A stretch of DNA of 64,000 bases from an uncultured Fidelibacterota bacterium (GTDB lineage Bacteria; Fidelibacterota; Marinisomatia; Marinisomatales; Marinisomataceae): the NCBI GenBank assembly GCA_902525615.1, contig CABZHT010000001.1, forward strand, positions 475,282 to 539,281. The letters run 5' to 3'. Numbering within the stretch: the first letter of the stretch is position 1; every line of letters starts with the position of its first letter. The translations under genes and the position numbers were made by a program. The notes under the pieces are model-generated. The model did no database searches. It saw only the letters and a list, made by a program, of their open reading frames with translations, and had not been told where the DNA came from. Positions 38,897-42,483 of the stretch are shown here, piece by piece.

Positions 38897-39182
38897 ATTC
38901 TTCTACCTTTACTTTAAAAACTCTCTCCCCAGGTTTAACCATTTTAAATTTTTCTCGAGCAATTTTTTCAATGTATTTTTCGTCAAATTTTAACTTCTCT
39001 TCTTCTTTTTCAAGCATAGCAATTTGATTTCTTAAGTCATTAATTTCATTTTGAATCTCTAATTTTTCTTTTTTAAGTGACCATAAATTAATTAATCCCC
39101 TGTCGCTAAATAGAAGTAAAGATATGCAGCCAACAACAATTGTGACCATTAAGAGGTTTGTTAGTGAGAAAAATGATTTCAT
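38889..39182 (-). CDS. FtsB/DivIC-family septum formation protein
   Basis: Short bitopic cell-division protein. The 97 residues have a short cytoplasmic start, one membrane helix (about 10-27), a coiled coil (about 35-68, KKEKLEIQNEINDLRNQIAM) and the family C-terminal EKIAREKFKMVKPGE motif. FtsB/DivIC links FtsL and FtsQ in the divisome. Position directly downstream of eno (ATGA overlap) is the common eno-ftsB arrangement. Confidence 0.88.
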   Translation of the reverse strand: MKSFFSLTNLLMVTIVVGCISLLLFSDRGLINLWSLKKEKLEIQNEINDLRNQIAMLEKEEEKLKFDEKYIEKIAREKFKMVKPGERVFKVKVEESN

Positions 39183-40462
39183 TTAACAAAGTTTAAAGAA
39201 TTGCACAATGTTGAGTTTTCGAGCCGTTCTTCAATTCTTAGAAGTCGGTTATATTTTGCAGTTCTATCAGATCGACATACTGAACCCGTTTTAATTTGTC
39301 CGCCATTCATCGCAACTGATAGATCGGAGATAAAAGTATCTTCCGTTTCACCTGATCTGTGTGAAATGATATAATTCATATTGTCTGTTTTAGCCATCTC
39401 TATTGCCTTGATGGTTTCTGAAACAGTTCCAATTTGATTTAATTTAATCAATATAGCATTCATTGAGTTTTGCTCAATTGCTTTTTCTAGCTTTTTTGGG
39501 TTGGTCACAGTTAAATCATCGCCTACAATTTGAATCTTTGAACCAAGTGCCTTGTTCATGCTTGCCCAACCTTCCCAATCATTTTCATCTAGACCATCTT
39601 CAATCGAAACAATCGGGTATTTTTGAATTAAATCTTCATAAAAACCAATCATTCCATCTGTGTCCAAAACGCTTCCATCAACTTTTAAATGGTATTTATG
39701 ATGTTTATAAAAACTAGATGCTGCTACATCTAAAGCTAAAGAAATATCATTTCCGATGTTAAACCCAGCTTTTTCAATAGAATTAAGAAGAAGCTCAATT
39801 GCATGGTCATTTGATTTTAATGCCGGAGCAAATCCACCTTCATCCCCTACTGTTGTTCCTAGTCCTTGTTTTTTTAATTCTTTTTTCAAACAGTGAAATA
39901 CTTCAGATCCCATTTGAAGAGAGTGCTTAAAACTTTTTGCACCATGTGGGAATAGCATAATTTCTTGCAGATCGGAACCTTGGTCTGCGTGCATTCCGCC
40001 ATTAAGGACGTTTATCATTGGTACAGGCATTATGTTGCTATTTGGGTTTAAATAGTGATATAATGGTTTATTGTAAAAAGTAGCACTAACTACTGAACAA
40101 GCCATTGATATTCCTAAGCTTGCGTTTGCGCCGAATGCGCTTTTATTTGAAGTTCCGTCAATATTAATAAGTAAATCATCAATTTCTTTTTGGTTGCTTG
40201 CATCTTTGCCAATCAACGCAGTCCCAAAATTGTTGATAACGTTGTCTACAGCTTTTAAAACACCTTTACCGTGAAATCTTTTGGTGTCTCCATCTCTTAG
40301 TTCAAGAGCTTCAAATTCTCCCGTAGATGCTCCAGAAGGGACAGCAGATATACTTTTATGACCCGATGCTGTAATTTCTACTTCAACAGTTGGAAATCCC
40401 CTAGAGTCTAAAATCTCTCTAGCATGAACCTTCTCGATTATTGGTTTGCGTGCTTTTTTCAT
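39179..40462 (-). CDS. eno: Enolase
   Basis: Converts 2-phosphoglycerate to phosphoenolpyruvate in glycolysis. The 427 residues include REILDSRGFPTVEVEI, SGASTGEFEALELRDGD, the GDEGGFAPAL block (catalytic Glu), the metal ligands in SIEDGLDENDWEG and GDDLTVTNP, the LIKLNQIGTVSET lysine region and SHRSGETED. Length is normal. The start carries about eight residues before the usual KVHAREILD start, so translation could begin slightly later. Confidence 0.97.
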   Translation of the reverse strand: MKKARKPIIEKVHAREILDSRGFPTVEVEITASGHKSISAVPSGASTGEFEALELRDGDTKRFHGKGVLKAVDNVINNFGTALIGKDASNQKEIDDLLINIDGTSNKSAFGANASLGISMACSVVSATFYNKPLYHYLNPNSNIMPVPMINVLNGGMHADQGSDLQEIMLFPHGAKSFKHSLQMGSEVFHCLKKELKKQGLGTTVGDEGGFAPALKSNDHAIELLLNSIEKAGFNIGNDISLALDVAASSFYKHHKYHLKVDGSVLDTDGMIGFYEDLIQKYPIVSIEDGLDENDWEGWASMNKALGSKIQIVGDDLTVTNPKKLEKAIEQNSMNAILIKLNQIGTVSETIKAIEMAKTDNMNYIISHRSGETEDTFISDLSVAMNGGQIKTGSVCRSDRTAKYNRLLRIEERLENSTLCNSLNFVK

Positions 40463-40584: not shown

Positions 40585-40613
40585 TTGATTAGCCCAAAAA
40601 AAGAGACTATAAT
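40585..40613 (+). promoter_or_regulatory. Near-consensus sigma-70 promoter
   Basis: TTGATT and TATAAT are separated by exactly 17 bases. This is the best promoter in the window. Transcription should start near 40620 and run into the terminator hairpin at 40681-40721 before reaching the small-protein genes. Confidence 0.75.
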
Positions 40614-40623
40614 TATTAATAAG

Positions 40624-40704
40624 ATGAATTTTTGGCAACTTTTAAGAGAATTTAATCATATTGACATGATTAATGATGGGGGCAAAAAAACTATAAGTTT
40701 ATAG
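40624..40704 (+). CDS. Possible 26-residue leader peptide
   Basis: An open frame starts with ATG about four bases after the predicted transcription start and ends at TAG inside the 3' half of the terminator's inner stem. The peptide begins MNFWQLLREFNHIDM. There is no ribosome-binding site, so translation would have to be leaderless. A ribosome reading it would cover the terminator stem, which would suit translation-controlled attenuation, but the frame may be accidental. Confidence 0.3.
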   Translation: MNFWQLLREFNHIDMINDGGKKTISL

Positions 40705-40721
40705 GGTTTTTGCCTTTTTTT
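40681..40721 (+). terminator. Intrinsic terminator upstream of the small-protein genes
   Basis: GGCAAAAA (40681-40688) pairs with TTTTTGCC (40707-40714), and inside it CTATAA (40691-40696) pairs with TTATAG (40699-40704). A run of seven T follows. The orientation is plus, toward the small genes. No plus-strand gene longer than the 26-codon frame precedes it, so it ends a short leader transcript. Confidence 0.75.
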
Positions 40722-40753
40722 AACTAGTTATTAACTAATCAAGGAGGAATAAC

Positions 40754-40960
40754 ATGGCTTCATGGGATTCAATGTTAAATGGTGCTTTAAATGGTCTAAC
40801 AGGTGTAGTTAAGGCTGCAATTATCTTTTTTGTTTTTGCAGGCATACTTTTCGATACACCAGTTGATGCACTAGGTGGTATAATGGGTTTTGTAGATACT
40901 TTTCTTAATGGCGGACTAACAGGACTACTAGTTTTAGTTGTCTTCTTATCTTGGCTATAA
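40754..40960 (+). CDS. Small glycine-rich membrane protein A of a paralogous pair
   Basis: I do not recognise this family. The 68 residues contain two hydrophobic segments (about 17-33 and 54-68) around a glycine-rich turn, suggesting a membrane hairpin. AAGGAGGA six bases before the ATG is a near-perfect ribosome-binding site, rare in this part of the window, so high expression is likely. It aligns without gaps to the next small protein: G30, I31, L32, D34, G42, I43, V47, G53, G54, G57, L58 and W67 are identical and F33 matches Y33. There is no signal-peptide cleavage site or cysteine. Bacteriocin-, holin- or complex-subunit-like roles are all possible but unsupported. Confidence 0.8.
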   Translation: MASWDSMLNGALNGLTGVVKAAIIFFVFAGILFDTPVDALGGIMGFVDTFLNGGLTGLLVLVVFLSWL

Positions 40961-40983
40961 ACTAATCAGTATTTACTAATAAA

Positions 40984-41012
40984 TAGAGCTCCCTATTCAT
41001 TGGGGAGCTCTA
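40984..41012 (+). other. Intergenic hairpin between the two small genes
   Basis: TAGAGCTCCC and GGGAGCTCTA form a ten-base perfect stem with a nine-base loop. No T run follows, so it is not a standard terminator. It may set the ratio of the two products by protecting the upstream message or acting as a processing site. Confidence 0.55.
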
Positions 41013-41034
41013 AAAGCTCGAAGGAGAAAACACA

Positions 41035-41247
41035 ATGAAAGATGTGATAAAAAAAATCAATGATTTCTTAGGTATGACTACAGGCCTTTTGATTAATTTG
41101 ATTGTTGCTGGTACTATTATCGGTATCCTTTATGATGACATGTTTGGTGTCATTGCAGGAATTGGTAATGCAGTTAATGCTATTGGAGACGGTGGTGTTG
41201 CTGGATTAGTAGCAGTTATGCTCGTCGCAATGTGGATGAAAAAATAA
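41035..41247 (+). CDS. Small glycine-rich membrane protein B of a paralogous pair
   Basis: A 70-residue paralogue of the preceding gene, with the same spacing of conserved residues (GIL-Y-D at 30-34, GI at 42-43, GG at 53-54, GL at 57-58, W67). It has a basic N-terminus (MKDVIKKIND) and C-terminus (MKK) that should keep both ends on the cytoplasmic side of the membrane. Hydrophobic segments are at about 15-33 and 55-68. GAAGGAGA seven bases before the ATG is a strong ribosome-binding site. A terminator follows. Function unknown. Confidence 0.8.
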   Translation: MKDVIKKINDFLGMTTGLLINLIVAGTIIGILYDDMFGVIAGIGNAVNAIGDGGVAGLVAVMLVAMWMKK

Positions 41248-41274
41248 TCTAGTTTTCTCTACATTGATTGATAT

Positions 41275-41302
41275 AAAAAGGGCTCAAAATTTGAGCCCTT
41301 TT
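41275..41302 (+). terminator. Rho-independent terminator after the small-protein pair
   Basis: AAAAGGGCTCAA and TTGAGCCCTTTT form a 12-base perfect stem with a three-base loop, with T-rich sequence after it. It closes the unit that began at 40585. Confidence 0.88.
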
Positions 41303-41318
41303 ATATTATTTTTATAAT
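41291..41318 (+). promoter_or_regulatory. Possible promoter of the amidase-folC operon
   Basis: TTGAGC (41291-41296) and TATAAT (41313-41318) are 16 bases apart. The -35 lies in the terminator stem of the previous unit. Transcription would start only a few bases before the GTG of the amidase gene, so its mRNA would be nearly leaderless. Confidence 0.45.
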
Positions 41319-41328
41319 AATTTAAATA

Positions 41329-42483
41329 GTGAAATTATTAAGAACATATTTCCAACTTTTTTCAATTATTTTTTTACTTTCGCATTTATGTGCAAAAACC
41401 GAATCTAAGATAAAAGTTTTTGAAAATAATGTATTTGTTGGGGAAATAAATACCATTCAAAATCAAAATCTTTTTTCAGTAAATGATTTTATTCAAATAA
41501 CTAATTCAAAAAATTTTATAAACAATAAAACACAAAAAGCTGTTTTCTACGTTAATAATAAAAAAATAAAAATTAGCAACCAAATTACATTTATTGAAAT
41601 TGAAGACAACCTTTTTCAGCTTTCTTCAAAAGTTATAAATAAAAGCGGTGTTTATTATCTACCAACCGAATCATTTTTTGGAATCATTCAAAATTTGTCT
41701 GATTCTTCTTCAATAAAATACACAAATAACGAAATTAGATTTACATCTATTACTACAGATAAAAAAATAGTTAAAAAAAATGTAGATCTACGCAGCGAAA
41801 TAGAGAAATGGGAATTTAAAACCATTGTTATTGATGCTGGTCATGGAGGTAAAGATCCTGGAGCAGTTGGATATAGGGGTACCAAAGAAAAAGATATCGC
41901 ATTAGATGTTGCTAAGAGGTTGGAAAAGAAATTATCCAAAAACATGAACATTAAAATAATCATGACAAGAGATGAAGATGTATTTCTTCGGCTAAGCGAG
42001 AGAACTAAAATTGCAAACGAAAGTAACGGCAATTTATTTATCAGTATTCATACAAACGCTGCAGAAGACAGGAGAGCAAGTGGATTTGAAACCTTTTTAA
42101 TTGGTCCAAATAAAAATGAAGCAGCAGTTAGAGTTGCTGCTAGAGAAAACGCAGTACTAGAACTTGAGGGAACAACTGATAAAAAATTAACAAATGAAGA
42201 TTTGATTCAAGCAACAATCGCGCAAAGCTCTTTTGCTTCTAAGAGTGAACAGTTTGCATCCATGGTACAGAAAGAAATTAAAAAAAGAGTACAAAGTCGG
42301 GACCGTGGCGTTAAACAAGCTGGGTTTTATGTTCTTATGGGAGCATCAATGCCAAATGTTCTAGTAGAGCTTGGATTTATTTCTAATCCATCGGAAGAAA
42401 AGAAGTTGCGAAGTCCTCAATATCGAGATCAGTTGGCAACAGCAATTTATCGAGCTGTTGAACAGTACCAAAAAACTCTATAA
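41329..42483 (+). CDS. N-acetylmuramoyl-L-alanine amidase (Amidase_3)
   Basis: Exported zinc amidase that splits septal peptidoglycan. The 384 residues start at GTG with a signal peptide (about 1-22, ending LCAKTES). A variable N-terminal domain (about 25-150) may bind wall or regulators. The catalytic domain (about 163-384) has VIDAGHGGKDPGAVG (zinc His), the glutamate in GTKEKDIALDVA, LFISIHTNAA (second His) and NVLVELGFISNP (catalytic Glu). LytM proteins such as those at 32-34 kb are known activators of this family. Confidence 0.92.
   Translation: MKLLRTYFQLFSIIFLLSHLCAKTESKIKVFENNVFVGEINTIQNQNLFSVNDFIQITNSKNFINNKTQKAVFYVNNKKIKISNQITFIEIEDNLFQLSSKVINKSGVYYLPTESFFGIIQNLSDSSSIKYTNNEIRFTSITTDKKIVKKNVDLRSEIEKWEFKTIVIDAGHGGKDPGAVGYRGTKEKDIALDVAKRLEKKLSKNMNIKIIMTRDEDVFLRLSERTKIANESNGNLFISIHTNAAEDRRASGFETFLIGPNKNEAAVRVAARENAVLELEGTTDKKLTNEDLIQATIAQSSFASKSEQFASMVQKEIKKRVQSRDRGVKQAGFYVLMGASMPNVLVELGFISNPSEEKKLRSPQYRDQLATAIYRAVEQYQKTL

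Follow-up and report, generated by a model that had tools for sequence, protein, structure and literature searches.

TrbC/VirB2 pilins (PF04956) are small proteins with two hydrophobic helices, and ATP synthase subunit c is a helical hairpin of about 70-75 residues. Class II phage holins, of 65-95 residues, cross the membrane with two helices and end in a basic C-terminus. MIC10-type and caveolin-type scaffolds shape membranes through the oligomerisation of small hairpins that bear glycine motifs. Cyanophages carry psbA/psbD and hli, genes for membrane proteins that have diverged from those of the host. Here, we describe two tandem genes, A and B, found in a 64,000-nucleotide stretch of DNA, hereafter the window, and compare their products with these systems.

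The window comes from a marine Candidatus Marinimicrobia genome of 919 kb with a completeness of 89%. Near-identical loci are found in single cells and MAGs of Candidatus Marinimicrobia (Neomarinimicrobiota). The 5' neighbour of A is presumably enolase (39179-40462, minus strand) and the 3' neighbour of B is taken to be an N-acetylmuramoyl-L-alanine amidase-like gene (41329-42483, plus strand), both names being read from the translations with family knowledge. An earlier note had described A and B as paralogous small membrane proteins of an undescribed family, and the coordinates, lengths and shared residues that it named are all correct (Table 1). Comparison of the A and B family profiles gives a probability of 98.9% and E=2.3e-17, with no gap over 71 columns. 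This rules out a chance likeness and upholds the gapless relatedness claimed before. The pN/pS of 0.20 for A and 0.24 for B, measured over 18 congeneric species, corresponds to purifying selection on both genes; these values are raw proportions with synonymous sites near saturation, so that the true ratio is lower. The ribosome-binding sites, already noticed as unusually strong, rank first (A) and fourth (B) among the 50 genes of the window in predicted pairing, and the block TTAACTAATCAAGGAGGAATAACATGGCTTCATGGGATT shows no variation in any of the 18 species. Judged from the sequence, A and B are real, translated paralogues.

Table 1 Features of the A-B unit in window coordinates
Feature	Position	Strand	Description
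Promoter	40585..40613	+	TTGATT 40585-40590, spacer 17, TATAAT 40608-40613; in all 18 aligned species of the genus
5' leader of the A-B unit	40620..40753	+	Approximate transcript start to start of A; from genus alignment
Leader hairpin 1	40652..40673	+	TTAATCAT-attgac-ATGATTAA; sequence and pairing kept in the genus
Leader hairpin 2 and T-run	40681..40721	+	Attenuator-like; compensatory changes in the genus
RBS of A	40741..40747	+	AAGGAGG; invariant in the genus
Gene A	40754..40960	+	68 aa, small two-helix membrane protein, first of the pair
A-B intergenic hairpin	40985..41011	+	AGAGCTCCC / GGGAGCTCT, without T-run; compensatory changes between species (by eye)
RBS of B	41021..41026	+	AAGGAG
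Gene B	41035..41247	+	70 aa, paralogue of A, second of the pair
Terminator-like hairpin after B	41276..41303	+	Flanked by A-run and T-run; conserved in the genus; may serve both strands

AlphaFold2 predicts helical hairpins for both proteins with moderate confidence (mean pLDDT 76.7 for A and 76.1 for B; pTM about 0.43 for the monomers), in agreement with the two hydrophobic segments seen earlier in each protein. The predicted helices span residues 2-33, 39-51 and 55-67 of A, and residues 2-32 and 36-69 of B. In 108 diverse rows, the numbers of K/R and D/E residues per protein are 0.01 and 0.23 in helix 1, 0.00 and 0.02 in helix 2, 0.50 and 2.31 in the loop, and 1.55 and 0.19 at the C-terminus. 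G57 (A numbering), at the start of helix 2, is present in 100% of these rows and G54 in 81%. The traits that mark the new family are found together: the glycine at the start of helix 2, the charge-free helices, the acidic loop and, in hosts, the tandem A-B arrangement.

Searches of Pfam, NCBIfam, PHROG, PADLOC, Rfam, PDB and Foldseek gave no convincing family match, and we found no description of the family in the literature. Sequence matches in the PDB (photosystem, V-ATPase, toxin; E 0.1-10) and Foldseek matches of the A and B models (E above 4) are attributed to chance. The best PADLOC match, PD-T4-10_B, reaches E=0.045 in one of 12 members and does not identify the family as a known anti-phage defence protein. 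The description of the pair as undescribed thus holds, with homologues that are paired likewise elsewhere. By these searches, A and B form a protein family absent from the libraries searched; the claim of newness concerns the family, not its biochemistry.

Of 27 members, 4 match TrbC/VirB2 weakly in Pfam, with E=1.9e-4 at best; A and B of the window are not among them. In the Flavobacteriales/phage set, TrbC/VirB2 gives no match and T4SS_pilin reaches 0.37 in one of 12 members. In contrast with these pilins, A and B have no signal peptide, their loop is acidic instead of basic and they are paired paralogues. Their helix 1 starts ~17-20 residues in, which leaves no room for a cleaved signal peptide. 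No type IV secretion genes are located beside the pair, whose neighbours are housekeeping or porin-like. TrbC/VirB2, although the best lead from the family searches, therefore fails on both signal peptide and gene context. Compared with ATP synthase subunit c, helix 2 of A and B is devoid of a carboxylate (D/E 0.02), the loop is acidic and no Pfam match links the families.

Using single-protein queries, 74 of 101 relatives are positive for A and 78 of 101 for B. Of 245 genomes sampled from the phylum, 142 match a joint profile at E 0.001, or about 140 if two weak cases (G013, G121) are set aside. Outside the phylum, a query with the A protein of a diverged pair in a MAG named Cryomorphaceae identified the family in 61 of 248 sampled genomes of the order Flavobacteriales, all of 0.8-2.0 Mb. 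The tandem pair is present at each of the 30 Flavobacteriales loci examined. In the rest of the Bacteroidota sample, the Marinimicrobia profile matched 0 of 296 genomes and a broader profile 0 of 395; within Bacteroidota the family seems confined to some Flavobacteriales, or else the samples missed carriers. The paired arrangement thus recurs across Marinimicrobia and is shared by Flavobacteriales, and the objection that the pair might lack paired homologues falls away. The diverged pair of the Cryomorphaceae-named MAG, its second, is located on its own 617 kb contig, adjoining phosphoglucomutase with polA not far away. The same MAG also contains a Marinimicrobia contig (BOWN01000006.1; L177/L292), with a gene order near-identical to that of the window. 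This is probably a binning error in the public genome.

Pairing is strict. We counted 124 distinct adjacent pairs, 95 from Marinimicrobia, with gaps of 9-152 bases, and 29 from Flavobacteriales, with gaps of 55-129 bases. A precedes B in these pairs, and unpaired cases are few. In three genomes of family f10 (L075, L093, L074), the pair is duplicated in tandem as an A-B-A-B unit. The paralogy is ancient. The tree places first- and second-position genes in separate clades, with supports of 100/97 and 100/98 for the main group of Marinimicrobia, and the same A/B split is observed in Flavobacteriales and in the f8/f20 group; the tree is built on 74 columns and does not settle the deep branching order. 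At least five unrelated gene neighbourhoods surround the pair. In the window-type order it has eno, or a glycosyltransferase-type operon, on one side and the amidase gene on the other. It is adjoined by yajC in families f3, f5 and f8, is found at other loci in f16, f17, f19, f20 and f30, and has pgm, polA and a PLP enzyme beside it in Flavobacteriales. Because its neighbours vary in this way, the pair behaves as an autonomous unit. Several genomes of the same genus (G014, G012, G022, G017, G001), including one rated 93% complete (G014), gave no credible match, which argues that the pair is dispensable somewhere. A recent loss in some of these genomes is possible.

Family members are also encoded by viral contigs of IMG/VR, with B-type copies on contigs L252-L264 and A-type copies on seven contigs, L265-L271. 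Both types are found on four contigs (G245, G252, G253, of 169 kb, and G254), up to ~10 kb apart. Contigs with such copies bear T4-type genes, including those for a baseplate wedge protein, PhoH and peptide deformylase. Three viral B copies cluster together (96/96) within the Marinimicrobia B clade (100/98), and this nesting points to Marinimicrobia as their likely source and host. The profile of the Flavobacteriales B gene retrieved five further viral contigs (L327-L331) and that of the A gene retrieved 47 (L332-L378), a large group of uncultivated T4-type phages with one copy each, located near the gp32 single-stranded DNA-binding protein gene and thyX. The gp32 assignment in the latter group follows from an SSB match with E=2e-118. 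The copies in most phage contigs lie among gp32, thyX, PhoH, sigma-like and baseplate genes. The gp32-linked phages seem to carry a single family member. The A-family profile matched nothing in the viral contigs, the viral A copies being too diverged for its patterns. No family match was obtained in isolated phages (INPHARED, four queries) or in plasmids (one query).

On five of the seven A-type contigs (L265, L267, L268, L269, L270), the A copy starts 25-30 bases 3' of a porin-like gene of about 270-290 aa that Pfam does not match. In the gp32-linked phages, an outer-membrane-like gene family is found ~0.3 kb downstream or 4-6 kb upstream of the copy on 18 of 34 contigs, a count made by homology with many of the remaining contigs cut short.

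The earlier note also held the pair to be isolated between two terminators. The downstream hairpin is indeed terminator-like. The upstream one is leader hairpin 2, which lies between a conserved promoter, ~140-170 bases 5' of A, and the A start codon, and so belongs to the unit's own 5' leader. At the place of this promoter, other families show a Bacteroidetes-type element (TATTG...TAAATTC). Hairpin 2 precedes A in most families, with a T-run that is frequent, not constant; it is a candidate attenuator, stabilising hairpin or small-RNA end. In family f9, the leader contains a GTGG/CCACATAC hairpin as well as a G+C-rich hairpin enclosed by an outer stem, with compensatory changes. A covariance model of the f9 leader gives matches that end just before A in many loci outside its training set, with E between 7e-9 and ~0.1 over 705 kb, a score that derives partly from the shared ribosome-binding site. 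A structured leader with its own promoter is seen upstream of A both in the window (40585-40753) and at loci L172-L251, often with a U-tailed hairpin before the ribosome-binding site. The phylum-wide leader may be a new cis-acting RNA, or else a small RNA. Nothing in Rfam matches the 5' leader of A. Rfam matches at ~41217-41348 (DapZ and others) were below gathering scores, AT-rich hairpins having been matched, and were rejected. The hairpin between A and B may act in stability or processing and in this way set the A:B ratio.

We propose that A and B may be the two subunits of one previously undescribed inner-membrane hetero-oligomer, a reading that we place just short of an even chance. The evidence counted for it is the tandem pairing with separate A and B clades, the copying as A-B-A-B, the autonomy of the unit, the phage contigs with both members, the charge pattern with its invariant G57, the AlphaFold2 hairpins, the strong ribosome-binding sites and the leader. 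Each subunit would fold as a helical hairpin whose two ends face the cytoplasm, as the positive-inside rule predicts from the acidic loop and the basic C-terminus. An amphipathic start would lead into a charge-free helix and then an acidic amphipathic loop in the periplasm; the second helix, also charge-free, would begin at the invariant glycine. The hairpins would pack through small residues, namely G57, the near-invariant G54 and G26xxxG30 in B, into a glycine-packed assembly. Produced in abundance from its own leader-controlled unit, this assembly would shape or stabilise the inner membrane, or line a small pore. Since the helices have no polar or charged lining, a scaffold is slightly favoured over a pore, both being roles that the earlier note had considered. 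A and B may work like the MIC10-type and caveolin-type scaffolds, to which they are likened by general description and from which they differ in having two paralogous subunits. Because four phage contigs keep both types, up to ~10 kb apart, the two proteins probably act together. In the gp32-linked phages the apparent single copy suggests that a hetero-oligomer is not required for every member. T4-type phages of the same bacteria would supply A-type and B-type subunits, and the membrane state would be kept or altered to their benefit during infection.

Alternatively, A and B could belong as accessory subunits to a known, larger membrane machine, such as a respiratory complex or Sec/YajC, which we regard as unlikely. 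Across 245 genomes, the pair and cytochrome oxidase subunit I (PF00115) occur together in 118, the pair only in 22, the oxidase only in 47 and neither in 58 (Fisher p=9e-11, odds ratio 6.6, uncorrected for ancestry). This co-occurrence is suggestive, but it follows ancestry and has 69 exceptions. The yajC context, seen in three families, is one among several, and T4-type phages have the pair without any partner complex. A further, improbable reading gives the phage copies a role in superinfection exclusion or in envelope remodelling with a phage outer-membrane protein, the host genes being targets or parts of the pathway. The porin-like neighbours in both groups of phages would fit such a role, as would the porin-like gene directly 3' of the pair in host families f17 and f19. 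Porin-like genes are common, however, and their outer-membrane assignment is based on signal peptides and aromatic C-termini, with no Pfam match. We take this repeated adjacency as a lead on envelope function, not as proof.

The likeness to class II holins in size, membrane helices and basic C-terminus, together with the presence of both members in phage genomes, raises the quite improbable case of a holin-like lysis or permeabilising pair, of phage origin and adopted by the host, or of host origin and adopted by phages. No lysis cassette accompanies the pair in hosts, nor the copies in most phage contigs. L330 has a lysozyme-like gene ~1.5 kb upstream, and in L252 the start of B coincides with the end of a 3D-domain-like protein. 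Unlike holins, A and B are a core chromosomal pair under purifying selection, and with such strong ribosome-binding sites they would be lethal as holins unless controlled. No holin family is convincing either (top PHROG holin 0.018). The bacteriocin-like two-peptide product considered in the earlier note, or any secreted antimicrobial pair, is very unlikely indeed. A tandem of two small, hydrophobic, glycine-rich peptides recalls such systems, and a circular bacteriocin model matches one member at E=0.19. Against this, the translations contain no double-glycine leader, the genes near the pair include no ABC transporter, other export gene or immunity gene, and the pair is a vertically conserved core across the phylum, at several unrelated loci, with strong purifying selection and membrane topology signals.

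The hetero-oligomer reading would extend the cyanophage case. As with psbA/psbD and hli, the genes in question encode membrane proteins of the host, and T4-type marine phages carry divergent versions of both paired subunits; unlike in cyanophages, the hosts are non-photosynthetic and the host protein family has no name in the libraries searched. That the pair represents an ancient two-subunit membrane assembly of marine FCB bacteria, with a structured leader RNA and with both subunits acquired by T4-type ocean phages, is a possibility that we hold somewhat more loosely than the oligomer itself. Two lineages of marine bacterioplankton have the family, as do many uncultivated marine phages, and no searched library names it. 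The phylum-wide leader RNA offers a second lead. Flavobacteriales have cultured members, so that a deletion test may be possible among the carriers of this group. Because phages keep both paralogues, the membrane function presumably matters during infection. If the proposal is true, a general inner-membrane function would be limiting during infection of non-photosynthetic bacterioplankton.
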